Shown: positions 11,124-51,805 of the stretch, one piece after another | Layout: every line of letters starts with the position of its first letter | Position numbering within the stretch: the stretch's first letter is position 1 | From: a bacterium | GTDB lineage: Bacteria > Hydrothermota > DG-26 > JAUXAN01 | Length of the DNA stretch: 51,806 bases | Assembly (NCBI GenBank): GCA_030619885.1 | Contig: JAUXAN010000014.1 | Coordinates: 1 to 51,806 of the forward strand | Reading direction: 5' to 3' | Translations under genes and position numbers: made by a program | Notes under the pieces: model-generated | Databases searched by the model: none | What the model saw: only the letters and a program-made list of their open reading frames with translations | What the model was told of the DNA's origin: nothing

Positions 11124-11488
11124 TAAAAATATGTTTTAATGTATAAATGGAAACACACTCTAATTTTTACGAATGGTGTGAAGGATTTGCGAAAATTTTT
11201 TCTTGATGGAGTGTATCCAAGCGGGCTCTTGTAATATACATCCGAGTCTGCAACCTTGTGTGCATCTGGGATAAAATGTCAAATTGTCAAGCACCGTCCC
11301 CGAATTTTCAAGTTCGCCTGTCATTGCGAAAGCACCGCAGGTGCTCGTGGCAATCTCATTTTTTATATTTCAATCCCACCCCAAGGGTGGGATTTTGTAA
11401 TCATTAAGATTCAATGATTTCCGAAAACCGTCCCCAATGGATTTTTAAAGATTTGAGGGTATGGAAAGGTTCTTGTTGGATGTTTTAA
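11124..11488. other. Repeat-rich intergenic region
   Basis: No gene is seen. In order it holds TGTCAAGCACCGTCCCC (about 11286-11302), a CATTGCGAAAGCACCGCAGG/TGCTCGTGGCAATCTCAT palindrome (about 11323-11359), the REP palindrome at 11372-11394, and ATTCAATGATTTCCGAAAAC followed by CGTCCCC (about 11409-11436). That last block is the reverse complement of a block at about 50090-50116 near the REP transposase. Convergence of several repeat families marks this as a recombination-prone junction between two accessory operons. Confidence 0.5.
11372..11394. repeat. REP palindrome
   Basis: Arms AATCCCACCC and GGGTGGGATT separated by 3 nt. The same palindrome, with a CCCCAGGGG centre, occurs three times around the REP-associated transposase at the right end of the window. 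Confidence 0.75.
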
Positions 11489-19242: not shown

Positions 19243-20277
19243 TTATTTTCTGTACTCCGGGAAAAAGTCTCCCGCAATGATTTCTCTTCCCGCTTTACTC
19301 TCTTGCTTCCTCCTTTCTGCAACGAGTCTGTTGTATGCATCCTCGATATGTATTTTTTTGTAGATGTAGAATGGTAAGGTCTTTTTTGAAAAAGATGATT
19401 TGAATCGGTAAATACCATCATCAGGGTCTTTGCCACCCCCTAAAATAAAATACTTGAATCCATTCGCCTTTGCCCGGAGTGCTGCCTCGTAAATGAGCAA
19501 ATTATTTGGTCTTGCATGAAAAAAACTTTCATCGCCTCCGCCCAAGAAGGCATATATAATATCAGAAGAGTGGAGGAATAATACAGCGGCTATTATTTTA
19601 TCTTGATATTTTGCAAAGAAAAAAGAAGCATTGTCCCCAAGAATTTTTGCAATGTCCTCAAAAAACCCACAAGGGAAAAAATAGAATTTTTTAGCCCTAT
19701 CTCTTTCCATAGTGTGAATATAGAGGGAGTAGAATTTTTCAAGATGGGTGCTATCTTTTGACTCGAAAATTTTTACACCTTCCCTGACTGCTTTGTTTAT
19801 ATTTTTTCTGCATGCGTGATTGAAACCACACCATATCTCTTTTTCACTTAAAGAAAGATCTATGCACACAACTTCCCTATTTTTTTCTAAAAGTCCTGTA
19901 GATTTAAATGGTCTGTGGTTTTTGAAGAGCGGATGAAATCTTACAAATTCTGATACTATCTTCTTTGATAGACAGTAGTTATGAAAGTCGTTGAGAAATT
20001 CATCGATAGATCTTTTAGATGGATTTTTCTTAGAATGAAATTGCGGTCCTCCATAGTTATAGGTTGAAATAATATCATAGTTATGCGAATCTATCTTTCT
20101 GACAAAGTAGGGGTATATCACATATACTCTGTCACTCTTCCAAAGAAATAGTTCCGCTTTCCATCCAAAAACTTTTTCATACAGATGGCAGTATTGTGAA
20201 GAATAATGAATGTCACTGTTTTTTGTAATAGACTTCCACTCTGGCTCCGAAGTATTGTAAATCTCGTACATCTTCAA
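19243..20277 (-). CDS. FemAB/BioF2-like GNAT acyltransferase
   Basis: A 344-residue protein with two GNAT-like lobes as in FemAB and related acyltransferases: the segment FNHACRKNINKAVREGV near residue 155 and the second-lobe motif AALRAKANGFKYFILGGGK near 285. Relatives use aminoacyl-tRNA or acyl-CoA donors to modify peptidoglycan or surface sugars. The start overlaps the end of the DegT-NeuC fusion gene (ATGA), so it probably N-acylates an amino sugar or acts on the same surface glycan; this is inference. There is no signal peptide, consistent with cytoplasmic action. Confidence 0.75.
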   Translation of the reverse strand: MKMYEIYNTSEPEWKSITKNSDIHYSSQYCHLYEKVFGWKAELFLWKSDRVYVIYPYFVRKIDSHNYDIISTYNYGGPQFHSKKNPSKRSIDEFLNDFHNYCLSKKIVSEFVRFHPLFKNHRPFKSTGLLEKNREVVCIDLSLSEKEIWCGFNHACRKNINKAVREGVKIFESKDSTHLEKFYSLYIHTMERDRAKKFYFFPCGFFEDIAKILGDNASFFFAKYQDKIIAAVLFLHSSDIIYAFLGGGDESFFHARPNNLLIYEAALRAKANGFKYFILGGGKDPDDGIYRFKSSFSKKTLPFYIYKKIHIEDAYNRLVAERRKQESKAGREIIAGDFFPEYRK

Positions 20278-22541
20278 TAAGTAAGTCTCTTCATCAAGAG
20301 TCTGGGCGTGATTTTTGTCTTTTTTATAACTTCAATAATGGTCTTTGCCCCTCCATAAGGTTTAAATGGAGTGCTCATACCTTTTTTTAATTTCGGGTTG
20401 GACAAAATTTCTCTTATTGCTTTTGAGATTGAGAGATATTTATGTGGAACATCCATGATTCCTTCCCCCCTTTCTCTCCCCCTCTGTCTTATCCCAATAT
20501 TCACCACAGGGGTTCCAAAGAACGGTGCTTCTACAATACCACTGCTTGAATTTCCAGCAATAACATCCGCATACTTGAGTGCACTCAGATAGTCTCGAAA
20601 TGGAAGGCTTTTACAGATATGAAGAAATGGAAGATGTTGATATTTCTTTATCACTTCTATCATTTCCTTACCACCTGGGTCACAATTTGGATAGATGAGA
20701 AGTGTTTGTATTTTGAGTCTTTTTATAGCTTTTAGACTTTGTTCCATCTGTATACCTGCTTTATCCTGTTGCACACTGACAGGGTGTTGAATGAATAGAA
20801 TCAGCGGCTCTTCAGTATTCAATCCATATTTTCGGAACAGACTCTTTTTCCTATCTATTACACAACCCATATCATAGATACCTAATGGTCCAACGATATG
20901 TATCCGCCATCTCTCTTCTCCCATTCTTGCTAATCTTTCAGCAGATCTTTTTGTGGCAGGAAAATGGAGGTGTGCGAATTTACTGATGGAATGTCTTATA
21001 GGTTCATCTATGCATCCACCTGTTGTCGCATCCCCGCCATGAATGTGTCCGATAGGAATCTGCATAAAAGAAGCAGCAATGGCAGCAGAAAGCATTTCCC
21101 ACCGATCGCAAGGTATTAGAACAAAATCTAACTTTAGAGTGTTAAAAATATCTGTAAACTTGACCACTCCAATGCCAACTGATTTCGATATATCCGCTCC
21201 GCTGTCTCCACCCAATGCACAGCATCCCGTGGAGTGTAAATTTACAGTTGCAGAAATTTTGAAACCGTCTTTTCTTATCTCTTCAACAGTCAACCCAAAT
21301 TCAGAAAAAAGATGCATTCCTGTAACCAGGAGGGAAAGTTTCAACTCTCTATCTCTTTTGAGGGCAGACAAAAGCGGGAAGAGCAAGCCGTATTCCGCTC
21401 TGGAACCTGTTACGACCCCTACTTTTCTTTTATTGCGTGTATTCACCCCGCACCATGATTTGGTGTGGGGTTCATCTATAACCTTAACAATTCTCTCCAT
21501 ATCCCTTTCTGTATACCTCTGGTCTACGGGTAAGGTCAAAACATGGTTTGATAGTTTGTAACTCTCAACGAATGCAGTCTTGGGTATTGTGGCTGGTAAT
21601 TCCCAATGAATCGGTGGATAAATCCTGTTCTTAAGGAGTTTGTACTTTAAAGCCAACCTGTCCTTTGCCCATACAGGAAAACCGAGTGGAACTACACCAG
21701 AAGGGAGTCTTCGGAAGATAAACTCAATTTTTGCGGTTTCTTTTATATTATTGAGAAGATATAAAAAGTTACTCCGTCTCTTTTTAATTATCTCCTCAAA
21801 GTTCAATCTCAAAAGCACCATTTCTGAAATTTCAGACATAGAAGAAGGTTCGATATATCCATCAAAAATTTCTTCTACTTTCTTATCAAACCAGAAAGAC
21901 CATTCAAAAAATTCAGTGTTGAATATGTATGGAAAATAGTAGTGCAGGCTTTTGGATACAAGACTTGAGGTTTTAAAAACGGAGACCGCATATTTCTTTG
22001 CATCATTTCTTGGCTTAAAATTTAGAGGGATTTTTGAAGAGAGGAGTCCACCTCCTGAGATAGGGAATAATTTTCGCAGACTCGCAATTGAAATTTCACC
22101 CAAATTCTCATCGCTCTGAGAGAGAAAATTGTGTGTGCAATCTTCTATTATTTTCACTTTTTCGTCTTTTAAAAAGTCTATATTCTGAGGGAAGCCAAAA
22201 TAATGGATGATAAAAACGACCTTCGCATCGTCTAATTTGGAGAGTAAATCTGACTCGTCCAAGACGAATGGATGTTTAATCTTATAAAAGAGAGGCTCAA
22301 TCTTCTCTTCTACGAATGGCTGGAGGATGGAATAACAGAGGTATGAAGGTAGAAGAACTCTATCTCCTGCTTTTAATCCCAATGTTTTAATACTTATTTT
22401 TATAGCATCTCTGCCACTTTTGAAAAAATAATTAAACTTATTTGGAAGAAAATCTTTAAAGTTATTTCTCCGATGGAAGAATATCTGCACTGGTAGATAG
22501 AATTCGCTGCCGATGGGTTTCATAATCCGTATGGATTTCAT
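20274..22541 (-). CDS. DegT-type aminotransferase fused to NeuC-like UDP-sugar 2-epimerase
   Basis: A 755-residue fusion. Residues 1-350 resemble the DegT/DnrJ/EryC1/StrS PLP aminotransferases: SGRDAIKISIKTLGLKAGD, IIEDCTHNF and SLRKLFPISGGG, where the Lys (near 155) is the expected PLP anchor. Residues about 370-745 match hydrolysing UDP-GlcNAc 2-epimerases of the NeuC/LegG type: VVTGSRAEYGLLFPLL, CDRWEMLSAAIA, HIHGGDATTGG and NSSSGIVEAPFFGTPVVNIG. Together they suggest synthesis of an amino-nonulosonic acid precursor or bacillosamine-type sugar. The junction is encoded by a palindromic repeat (21445-21471). I chose the start at 22541 because a perfect promoter ends 7 nt before it; a frame open to 22601 would begin upstream of that promoter. 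Confidence 0.8.
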   Translation of the reverse strand: MKSIRIMKPIGSEFYLPVQIFFHRRNNFKDFLPNKFNYFFKSGRDAIKISIKTLGLKAGDRVLLPSYLCYSILQPFVEEKIEPLFYKIKHPFVLDESDLLSKLDDAKVVFIIHYFGFPQNIDFLKDEKVKIIEDCTHNFLSQSDENLGEISIASLRKLFPISGGGLLSSKIPLNFKPRNDAKKYAVSVFKTSSLVSKSLHYYFPYIFNTEFFEWSFWFDKKVEEIFDGYIEPSSMSEISEMVLLRLNFEEIIKKRRSNFLYLLNNIKETAKIEFIFRRLPSGVVPLGFPVWAKDRLALKYKLLKNRIYPPIHWELPATIPKTAFVESYKLSNHVLTLPVDQRYTERDMERIVKVIDEPHTKSWCGVNTRNKRKVGVVTGSRAEYGLLFPLLSALKRDRELKLSLLVTGMHLFSEFGLTVEEIRKDGFKISATVNLHSTGCCALGGDSGADISKSVGIGVVKFTDIFNTLKLDFVLIPCDRWEMLSAAIAASFMQIPIGHIHGGDATTGGCIDEPIRHSISKFAHLHFPATKRSAERLARMGEERWRIHIVGPLGIYDMGCVIDRKKSLFRKYGLNTEEPLILFIQHPVSVQQDKAGIQMEQSLKAIKRLKIQTLLIYPNCDPGGKEMIEVIKKYQHLPFLHICKSLPFRDYLSALKYADVIAGNSSSGIVEAPFFGTPVVNIGIRQRGRERGEGIMDVPHKYLSISKAIREILSNPKLKKGMSTPFKPYGGAKTIIEVIKKTKITPRLLMKRLTY
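21445..21471. repeat. Palindromic repeat inside the DegT-NeuC junction
   Basis: Arms ACCCCGCACCA and TGGTGTGGGGT around TGATT, pairing over 11 bp with one G-T. Read on the minus strand it encodes the linker PHTKSWCGV (about residues 357-365). A diverged copy of the same palindrome is at 22637-22663, just upstream of this gene. Confidence 0.7.
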
Positions 22542-22548
22542 GAAATGT

Positions 22549-22576
22549 ATTATATATCTCATTTGGCATATGTCAA
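22549..22576 (-). promoter_or_regulatory. Promoter of the sugar operon, leaderless type
   Basis: Minus strand TTGACA (22571-22576), 16-nt spacer, TATAAT (22549-22554), then 7 nt to ATG at 22541. Both boxes are full consensus, and this decides the start codon. Confidence 0.75.
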
Positions 22577-22636
22577 GGAGGTTTGGTATTTTTATTCTCA
22601 CTAATGACTATAGTTCTTCTGTGTACATTTGTGTAA

Positions 22637-22663
22637 ATCCAGCACCAAATTATAGTGCGGGGT
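22637..22663. repeat. Second copy of the DegT-NeuC junction palindrome
   Basis: ATCCAGCACCA-AATTA-TAGTGCGGGGT lines up base by base with the palindrome at 21445-21471 read on the minus strand, with the same 11-5-11 layout but less complete pairing. It lies between the divergent promoters of the sugar operon and thrS. Confidence 0.6.
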
Positions 22664-22708
22664 AAATCTGCGTCTACTGTCTGAATCACAGTTTTCTGCA
22701 AAAAATGG

Positions 22709-27982: not shown

Positions 27983-29315
27983 CAGGCTGTGTCATAATTT
28001 TAAAAATACTCTGTTTAGTAAAAATTCTCTGAAAACCAAGTTCTGACTCAAATTCCCTAACGCGGGTTCAACAGTTATTTTCCGTATCCCAAATATCTTT
28101 TTCCCTTCTGCTGTAGAAAGTTTTTGCCTCATCTTCATGGTGAGATGTGCATATTCAGACAACCAAATGCTTCGACCTTTCTTATCAGTTGTACATCTTC
28201 CAAAATATTGACAGTCGTTACATTCTTTGCAAGTGTAGATTGAAACCAGTCTATTACGATGTTTTTTCTGCTTGATGTAATTGAGCCTTTTGCCAGCAGG
28301 ACATATAAAATAGTTCTCTTCTCGATTTAAAATAAACTTTCTCATATGGAAAGGCGAATCTTCGTCAGTCTTCTTTCCTCGTCTTTTTGCCTGGTCTCTC
28401 ATATCAGGAATATAAGCATCAACCTCTTTCCTCTCTTCTAATTCGGCTAAATTCAGTTCTAAATTGTATCTACTGTCTGCTATAATTTTGAGCTTCTCTT
28501 CATCATCACTATTAGTTTCCTTTTTGAATTCTCTTATATTTTCACACGTTTGATCAACCATCGGTATTAAACAAGTAGTATCATTTTGTTCATTCGTAAC
28601 ATCATTTGCAACTATTATCTGTTCCTTGGAATCTATAGCAACTTGTGCCCGATATCCAGAGATTATTCTCGCCCCATCTTTTTGAAATTGTGCATCTTCA
28701 TCTGTAATATTAATCTTCTTCTTGCCACTCGCTTTTAGTTTCTTCTGTGCTTGCTTCAATTCTTCCACTATTTCTTTCATTCTATTAATACGCTTCTCTT
28801 TCTCTTCAATATCTTCTGGTAATTCATCCCCTCTTTCCTCGGCTCCATATTTTTCGTCTTCTTCAAGATCGGTCTGGTTCGCTTTCTCTAAGTATTCCTC
28901 TATTGCTTTCTTGAGTTTTTCTCTATCCTTAATAATCCTTTTATCATCATAGGTTCTCCTTGCTGCCGCATTTGCTTTTATTACTTTTGAATCAATTGAG
29001 ATTTCCCCAAGTTTAGTCATACCCAAACGATGATAAATCTGCAGTATATCTACAAAAGAATCCTTTAACTCTTTGAGATTATTCCTGCGAAACTATGATA
29101 TCGTTTTAAAATCAGGTTTCTGCATCCCAGACAGATATATGAAAGCAACATCAGTATTTAGTCTTTCCTCAATTTTTCTTGAACTGTATACTTTAGTTGC
29201 ATACCCGTAAAACCAGATTTTTACCATCAGTGCTGGATGATATGAAGGGTTACCTTTGGCAAATTGTCAATCTTTTTACCGACGATAAAAATCGAAGGGG
29301 TTATGACACAGCCTG
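27983..29315 (-). mobile_element. IS1182-like element, decayed
   Basis: Bounded by 15-bp inverted ends CAGGCTGTGTCATAA (27983-27997) and its complement (29301-29315). The length of 1333 bp is shorter than usual for the family, and the transposase is broken at both ends. No target duplication could be identified. Outside the right end a short AT-rich stretch carries a GGAGG site but no gene. Confidence 0.8.
27992..29266 (-). pseudogene. IS1182-family transposase remnant
   Basis: The frame can be read from about 29266: GNPSYHPALMVKIWFYGYAT, SSRKIEERL, AFIYLSGMQKPDFKTIS, then an in-frame TAG at 29093-29095, then FRRNNLKELKD and the DDE core starting KLGEISIDSKVIKANA (from 29026). The N-terminal first residues are missing. 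The C-terminus stops soon after VEPALGNLSQNLVFREFL, where intact relatives continue for several dozen residues. A CxxC region (CKECNDCQYFGRC) is present. The amber codon replaces the usual Asp or Asn of ISDFR-type motifs, and together with both truncations this means it is dead. Confidence 0.85.
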
Positions 29316-44702: not shown

Positions 44703-44734
44703 ACCCCGTTAGATATGAAATTATCTAACGGGGT
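44703..44734. repeat. Perfect 13-bp-stem palindrome between convergent operons
   Basis: ACCCCGTTAGATA (44703-44715) and TATCTAACGGGGT (44722-44734) around TGAAAT. It shares the TCTAACGGGGT arm and the following AACGC with 1738-1757. It lies midway between the convergent polyamine and lol-mcs operons and might block both transcripts, but it lacks a T-run. Best seen as a mobile palindromic repeat. Confidence 0.7.
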
Positions 44735-50950: not shown

Positions 50951-50973
50951 AATCCCACCCCAGGGGTGGGATT
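50951..50973. repeat. REP palindrome at the transposase stop codon
   Basis: AATCCCACCCC, A, GGGGTGGGATT: perfect 11-bp arms around one base. The TAA stop of the transposase (complement of 50972-50974) uses its last two bases. Confidence 0.85.
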
Positions 50974-51649
50974 AAGGTTGCTTCAAAAGTAAGTGCTTAA
51001 TCTTTGCTAATTCTCTTTGGTAAGAAATTCTATCTTCCGCAAAATTTTTGTAAGATACAGGATTAATTTTTAGAATGTCTTCATATTCACAAATTCTTTC
51101 ATCTTCATTAACCTCTGATAAGTACTCCAAATAAGAAGATGTCGACCAATCTTCTGGCTTTTCAACCAGGTGGGCAGTAACAGAGTTAAGGTGTATATAC
51201 CGGGTTAAATGAAGCAGTTGCTCGTCAGTTTCAACCAGTACATTTCGAAATTTATCTTCCCATAAAGGTCCTTTTCTTCTGGTCTGAATATTGAAATAAC
51301 GGCTATAACTATTGAGCAGATTACCCATAAATATTGAAATACCTTTATCTTTTAATTGTTTTAAGGCTAAATGTATATGGGTGGGCATAATGCAATAGCA
51401 AATTATCTGAACAAGTTTTTCTTTTCCATGTAATGCGGAAATGAAAACATTATTAAACCCTTTTTCTTTAACTTCCTTTAACTTTAGAAACTTGGAAAGC
51501 TTGAAAGGCATATTTTCTACTTGATAGTATCTTATCGCATTTTTGATTCTTAAAAACTGTCTATTACTATTAAATATTTTAAATTCAGCAATACTTCTGG
51601 CAAAAACATGATAAATCTCTCTTGTAACTAATGGTGTACTTCTACGCAT
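50972..51649 (-). CDS. REP-associated tyrosine transposase (Y1, IS200-like)
   Basis: A 225-residue Y1 HUH-superfamily transposase. The metal-binding HUH motif is PTHIHLALK, the nucleophile is in NSYSRYFNIQTRRKGPLW, and TRYIHLNSVTAHLVEKPEDW is typical of the TnpA-REP (RAYT) family. Such proteins cut and join single-stranded DNA at REP hairpins and spread them. The start at 51649 follows TAGGAGGGAAT; a frame open to 51760 would begin outside the right-hand REP and is rejected. REP palindromes flank it at 50951, 51701 and 51777, and a fourth is at 11372. Confidence 0.92.
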   Translation of the reverse strand: MRRSTPLVTREIYHVFARSIAEFKIFNSNRQFLRIKNAIRYYQVENMPFKLSKFLKLKEVKEKGFNNVFISALHGKEKLVQIICYCIMPTHIHLALKQLKDKGISIFMGNLLNSYSRYFNIQTRRKGPLWEDKFRNVLVETDEQLLHLTRYIHLNSVTAHLVEKPEDWSTSSYLEYLSEVNEDERICEYEDILKINPVSYKNFAEDRISYQRELAKIKHLLLKQP

Positions 51650-51700
51650 ATTCCCTCCTATAAAAATTCTTTTATACCTTATACCTATTTTCAGATTTAG

Positions 51701-51719
51701 TCCCACCCCTGGGGTGGGA
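51701..51719. repeat. REP palindrome upstream of the transposase
   Basis: TCCCACCCC, T, GGGGTGGGA, followed by a T-run. It has opposite central base (T instead of A) to the copies at 50951 and 51777, as expected for an inverted pair. Confidence 0.85.
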
Positions 51720-51776
51720 TTTTTTCCAGACAATTCATTGGAATTCTTCTCGAAAGTCATTGAATCTCAGTGGCTT

Positions 51777-51805
51777 CCAAGTCCCACCCCAGGGGTGGGA
51801 CTTGG
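51777..51805. repeat. REP palindrome, extended
   Basis: The arms CCAAGTCCCACCCC and GGGGTGGGACTTGG are perfect over 14 bp around a single A, the longest REP in the window. It sits at the window edge, so a larger repeat cluster may continue beyond. Confidence 0.85.

Follow-up and report, generated by a model that had tools for sequence, protein, structure and literature searches.

Small palindromic repeats described so far

The small dispersed repeats of cyanobacteria, which Elhai et al. are said to have described in 2008, are reportedly very small mobile repeats. Rickettsia palindromic elements (RPEs), of 105–146 bp, lie both between genes and in frame inside ORFs, and the part of their description consulted holds no case of two genes welded by an RPE (PMC2229807). 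REPs are palindromes of 20–40 bp, mostly intergenic with some inside genes, according to the consulted part of a second account (PMC3733652), from whose text the phrase "target site" and words beginning "duplicat" are absent.

Here we describe palindromes of a bacterial genome (a 2.46-Mb draft in 86 contigs), one of which lies within a fused gene of the window, by which we mean the whole 51,806-nucleotide stretch of DNA analysed. They resemble RPEs, a likeness that the original prediction had drawn, in being dispersed palindromes that occur in frame within conserved genes (family D in the genes for an MBL-fold protein, CheR and YceD; family A in the fused gene); they differ in being 25–30 bp, in having exact 4-bp duplications, and in that one of them joins two genes. 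REPs of the GTAG/CGTC type likewise are repeated, mostly extragenic palindromes of 20–40 bp, but neither end of the present palindromes bears an unpaired GTAG/CGTC tag, and families A and D are flanked mostly by TRAA/TTYA on both sides. Families A and D are MITE-like in being non-autonomous, with inverted repeats and a target duplication (families C and E are without it, and B has it at 6 of 31 sites), but they are much smaller than MITEs and have nearly no internal sequence. The cyanobacterial repeats are probably the closest precedent in size; they occur in other hosts. Among titles and abstract openings in open-access PubMed Central, we found no account of these palindromes or of two genes fused by an element of this kind.

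The fused gene and its junction

The features of the locus, in window coordinates, are as follows.

20274..22601, minus strand: fused ORF, 775 aa counted from the first GTG
21471..22508, minus strand: DegT-type PLP aminotransferase part, residues 32–377
20277..21443, minus strand: NeuC-type hydrolysing UDP-sugar 2-epimerase part, residues 387–775
19243..20277, minus strand: FemAB/GNAT-like gene that shares 4 bp with the end of the fused ORF
21446..21470, no strand: palindromic element of family A, 25 bp, one mismatch to the consensus; encodes linker PHTKSWCG
21442..21445, no strand: 4-bp target duplication copy, TTCA on plus, TGAA on minus
21471..21474, no strand: 4-bp target duplication copy, TTCA on plus, TGAA on minus
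21444..21446, minus strand: in-frame GTG, candidate internal start, made of the element's last G and TG of the duplication; replaces the rebuilt NeuC ATG
22638..22662, no strand: diverged sibling element in the spacer that separates the fused gene from the divergently oriented thrS; TAAA at 22634–22637 and 22663–22666

Homologues suggest that the real start of the fused ORF is the ATG at 22508 (residue 32, MKPIGSEFYLP). Profile searches against Pfam and NCBIfam place DegT_DnrJ_EryC1 at residues 47–170 (E 1e-9) and NeuC_NnaA at residues 392–757 (E 1.3e-115). Both halves keep their key motifs, as had been claimed: the Lys of SLRK in the DegT part, which is presumably catalytic, aligns with a conserved SLRK across DegT homologues, and the NeuC part, for which the nearest solved structures include 5zlr and 4zht, carries GSRAEYG, HIHGGD and GNSSSG, to which we likewise assign catalytic roles by assumption. 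Family membership suggests that the fused protein would act in amino-sugar synthesis. NeuB has one match in the genome, on another contig (C38).

The original prediction placed a 27-bp palindrome at 21445–21471, as the encoded linker, and a diverged sibling at 22637–22663, and both lie at those positions. The palindrome does encode the inter-domain linker (residues 378–385 and the first base of codon 386), but the element proper is 25 bp, the outer A/T pair that extends it to 27 bp being part of the flanking TTCA repeats. In an AlphaFold model of the fused protein (mean pLDDT 73.6, pTM 0.53, 12 sequences) two parts are folded, and residues 379–389, which match the element-coded linker, have pLDDT below 50 and sit between the last DegT helix (365–376) and the first NeuC strand (392–398). 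Given the pTM of 0.53, the placement of the domains relative to each other is untrustworthy.

Since this is a draft assembly, known from contigs alone, and no close relative was among the genomes searched, one might ask whether a sequencing or assembly error has joined separate genes. We consider this extremely unlikely: the junction holds a standard 25-bp element with a perfect 4-bp duplication, so no indel is hidden inside it, and it lies well within a 51.8-kb contig.

Palindrome families and their target duplications

The strict palindrome pattern of the junction occurs once in the window, with an expectation from shuffles of 0.00. Genome-wide, family A has 13 distinct sites at no more than three mismatches (none for the reversed-pattern control), which bears out the expectation that further copies would exist. 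Eleven of the other 12 sites lie outside any ORF of at least 100 aa, and the remaining copy (L023) provides the final codons and stop of an ORF. No family A match was found in viral contigs.

More broadly, the pattern CCCCG-N10-30-CGGGG has 82 matches per strand in the genome versus 11 in the control, and these fall mostly into families A (25 bp), B (26 bp), C (25 bp), D (29 bp) and E (29 bp). Exact 4-bp flanking repeats are present at 12 of 13 family A sites (TAAA, TGAA or their complements), 22 of 33 D sites, 6 of 31 B sites, 0 of 2 C sites and 0 of 4 E sites, counted over 83 distinct sites among the fetched loci, with identical 15-bp flanks merged; this is not every copy, some B and D sites being left out (for example, D at C80:180, C32:177 and C80:154981). 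When right flanks were shuffled in 20,000 trials, the observed family A count was never reached (mean 4.2, maximum 11). The same procedure, in which D and B sites were merged slightly differently from the flank counts, gave a mean of 6.7 and a maximum of 14 for family D (observed 20 of 31), and a mean of 1.1 and a maximum of 5 for family B (observed 6 of 28). Exact 4-bp repeats flank none of 80 unrelated palindromes from loci of the same genome (stems of at least 8) and 4 of 81 CCCCGCAC hairpins of viral contigs. The latter serve as a control only, as the loose pattern CCCCGCAC...GTGCGGGG was swamped in viral contigs by hairpins with other cores. Family B, most of which sits within a longer repeat, probably spread as part of that repeat.

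Some palindromes are of related or mixed form. At loci L101, L102, L067, L108 and similar ones of the same genome, B and D occupy one position in a longer repeat, attcgattaacctg...tgaatgtgattcgtg, as if the cores within this shared flanking repeat were exchangeable. A 30-bp palindrome at C45:7945–7974 (L132, same genome) resembles family A with an extended or chimeric core, and the window holds one more of a related kind:

44704..44733, no strand: 30-bp palindrome of the related CCCCGTTAGA...TCTAACGGGG kind, TCAA on both sides

The junction rebuilt without the element

We rebuilt the junction by removing the element and one TGAA on the minus strand, 29 bp in all (2 mod 3). The upstream frame then encodes 380 aa and ends ...IVKVIDEYTQ-stop, and the second frame opens with ATG-MNTRNKRKVGVVTG, overlapping the upstream gene by 17 nt. 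Of 120 positions nearby at which 29 bp were deleted, 17 also pass a lenient test for such a stop and ATG; thus the rebuild by itself is modest evidence, supporting rather than decisive.

Separate homologues end and begin near the rebuilt boundaries. Separate DegT homologues (n = 7) end within a few residues of VID, and that of L150 ends EVIERCLK, identical in length to the rebuilt KVIDEYTQ end. NeuC homologues (n = 4, two of these ORFs being read from longer 5' ends) continue from an M a few residues ahead of the NeuC core. Separate DegT and NeuC homologues, which the original prediction had proposed to look for among orthologues, do exist. Matches at E ≤ 1e-20 occur in 12 of 147 genomes of the phylum, the present one included, and are fused in this one only; no second DegT-NeuC fusion, with an unrelated linker or otherwise, was found among the 147 genomes at this threshold. 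DegT and NeuC are not neighbors in any relative examined, so their adjacency is seen only in this lineage. In L153 and L154 neuC is a separate gene with another gene directly 3' of it, which resembles the FemAB-like neighbor as judged by eye. One alignment, in genome G045 (27–444), seemed to cross the junction; it contains nine stops, and comprises a DegT gene and, after it, a gene without a NeuC match.

None of the relatives searched belongs to the genus or family of this bacterium, and the ancestral unfused locus was not seen. With no unfused sister locus to fix the order of events, the fusion could have been old and come first, the palindrome having later been inserted into, or grown from, an existing linker. 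This has very little probability in our estimate: once the element and one duplication are taken out, the domains no longer share a frame and a stop separates them, and a palindrome-free fusion is present in none of the 147 genomes.

We think it very probable, instead, that a small mobile palindrome inserted with a 4-bp duplication at the degT/neuC overlap and so fused both genes, a reading of the DNA in which insertion and fusion are well supported. In the proposed mechanism, family A would be a non-autonomous mobile element of very small size (25 bp) that duplicates 4 bp of its target, mostly TRAA/TTYA, when it inserts, and one copy would have entered the TGAA within the ATGAA start of neuC, the first 17 nt of which had overlapped the end of the upstream degT-like gene. 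The net gain of 29 bp (2 mod 3) would have carried the degT frame beyond the TAA that used to end it, to continue in that of neuC, yielding a single ORF of 744–775 aa with a flexible linker of about 11 residues. The neuC ATG would have become GTG with its frame kept. The predicted welding of neighboring genes by a repeat thus stands, but its route would not be simple removal of a stop: 29 bp entering overlapping genes would have shifted the frame.

Nothing stops the aminotransferase before NeuC, and hence translation as one chain would follow. The GTG at 21444..21446 is a possible NeuC start, and because it remains in frame a separate NeuC may be made too; the aminotransferase half would be makeable only as the fusion. 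A working bifunctional enzyme is plausible. One-chain translation, activity of both halves, and an enzyme that moves the element are what we infer from these sequences.

Family D: in-gene copies and phage alleles

The sister family D adds 29 + 4 = 33 bp, or 11 codons, on insertion, and can thus reside inside genes. We found it inside an MBL-fold gene, cheR and yceD. The MBL-fold protein, compared with 7dck, has a gap of exactly 11 residues at the D element, and the joined flanks place FDNYPYKEGLETGWGFSC beside FDNYAYLEGFQTLWGFSC. For CheR, the gaps at the D element are 1 + 10 residues versus 1af7 and 14 versus 5xly, in a loop of variable length. In YceD the flanks match at 2 of 4 positions, the element precedes the start of the Pfam match, and no match was found among solved structures; here it is the open frame that suggests an interruption by family D. 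In L093 and L127 the ORFs that run across palindromes lack a Pfam match, and we left them out of the gene count. L085 was set aside: the gene is real, but the element sits right at its beginning, where it is ambiguous which start is the true one.

Filled and empty alleles of a family D site are found in phage. Three IMG/VR contigs have TTCA-D-TTCA, and 15 viral contigs have a single TTCA. Across the site, the filled L147 shares 88.6% identity with the empty L163 over 836 bp, and to either side of it L147 also aligns with L174 (88.7% over 471 bp, 91.0% over 609 bp); the remaining filled/empty pairs give shorter or partial alignments. The short GC-rich sequence around this insertion site is common to all 18 viral contigs (L147–L149, L163–L177), with flanks varying further out, and may be a recurrent phage intergenic motif.

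Of the 147 genomes of the phylum, 16 carry the D stem, the present one included (reversed controls 0), and an identical D 29-mer is shared by some genomes of different families. An exact 4-bp repeat flanks 4 of 9 D-stem loci looked at in other genomes, and 1 of 13 further viral stretches with the stem, several of which are longer hairpins. A search for family D in plasmids or phages gave no match at E 0.01.

As far as DNA comparison goes, the filled and empty sites show family D to be mobile; family A would be mobile by analogy and from its own duplications. Taken together, the duplications, the in-gene copies and the filled and empty sites mark the palindromes as insertions, and A and D, on these alignments, are mobile palindromes of very small size that duplicate 4 bp of their target.

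This bears on a further reading of the junction, that its palindrome is an ordinary regulatory hairpin (a terminator, an attenuator or an mRNA-stability REP), that the open frame is coincidental, and that NeuC is made from its own GTG. The junction RNA does fold strongly (-16.3 kcal/mol, z -3.5), 66 of the 83 palindromes examined overlap no ORF of at least 90 aa, and a GTG lies in frame where the rebuilt ATG stood. We hold this reading to be unlikely, both for the marks of insertion just given and since a ribosome finishing degT would meet no stop ahead of NeuC and would make the fusion. On the evidence set against each of them, the terminator-only, assembly-error and pre-existing-fusion readings were rejected in favor of fusion by insertion.

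Candidate movers

A 4-bp duplication is unlike insertion of the IS200/IS605 type. Y1_Tnp matches number 14 genome-wide; of the eight whose loci were fetched, only L062 has a CCCCG palindrome nearby (family B), and none has A or D. No larger element with the 10-bp ends of family A was found in the genome: matches to CCCCGCACCA outside known family A copies are single on their contig or tens of kb off, with no IS-spaced pair.

Transposase genes also lie in the window. A Y1 (RAYT-like) transposase ORF at 50972–51760 (minus strand) is bracketed by a different palindrome, approximately AATCCCACCCC-A-GGGGTGGGATT, with copies at 50951–50973, 51699–51721 and 51777–51805 and one more at 11372–11394; the stretch 50951–51805 looks like a REP-RAYT unit. 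A DDE_Tnp_1_6 transposase lies at 27992–29026, which we take to be IS1182-like.

Implications

Gene fusion is a main route to multi-domain enzymes, but the underlying DNA event is rarely visible. Here the proposed event can be read base by base, in the element, the duplication, the frame shift, the old stop and the old start. Palindromes of 25–30 bp that have duplications, in-gene copies and phage alleles also raise the question of what moves such small DNA. We suggest, tentatively, that the CCCCG...CGGGG palindromes could be a distinct minimal class of mobile DNA: 25–32 bp long and nearly all stem, with a 4-bp duplication, present in distant families of one phylum and in phage contigs, and with differing cores in the same flanking repeats. 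Of these, D (33 bp, 11 codons) could live within genes, and A (29 bp) could weld overlapping genes, leaving a GTG where it enters ATGAA.
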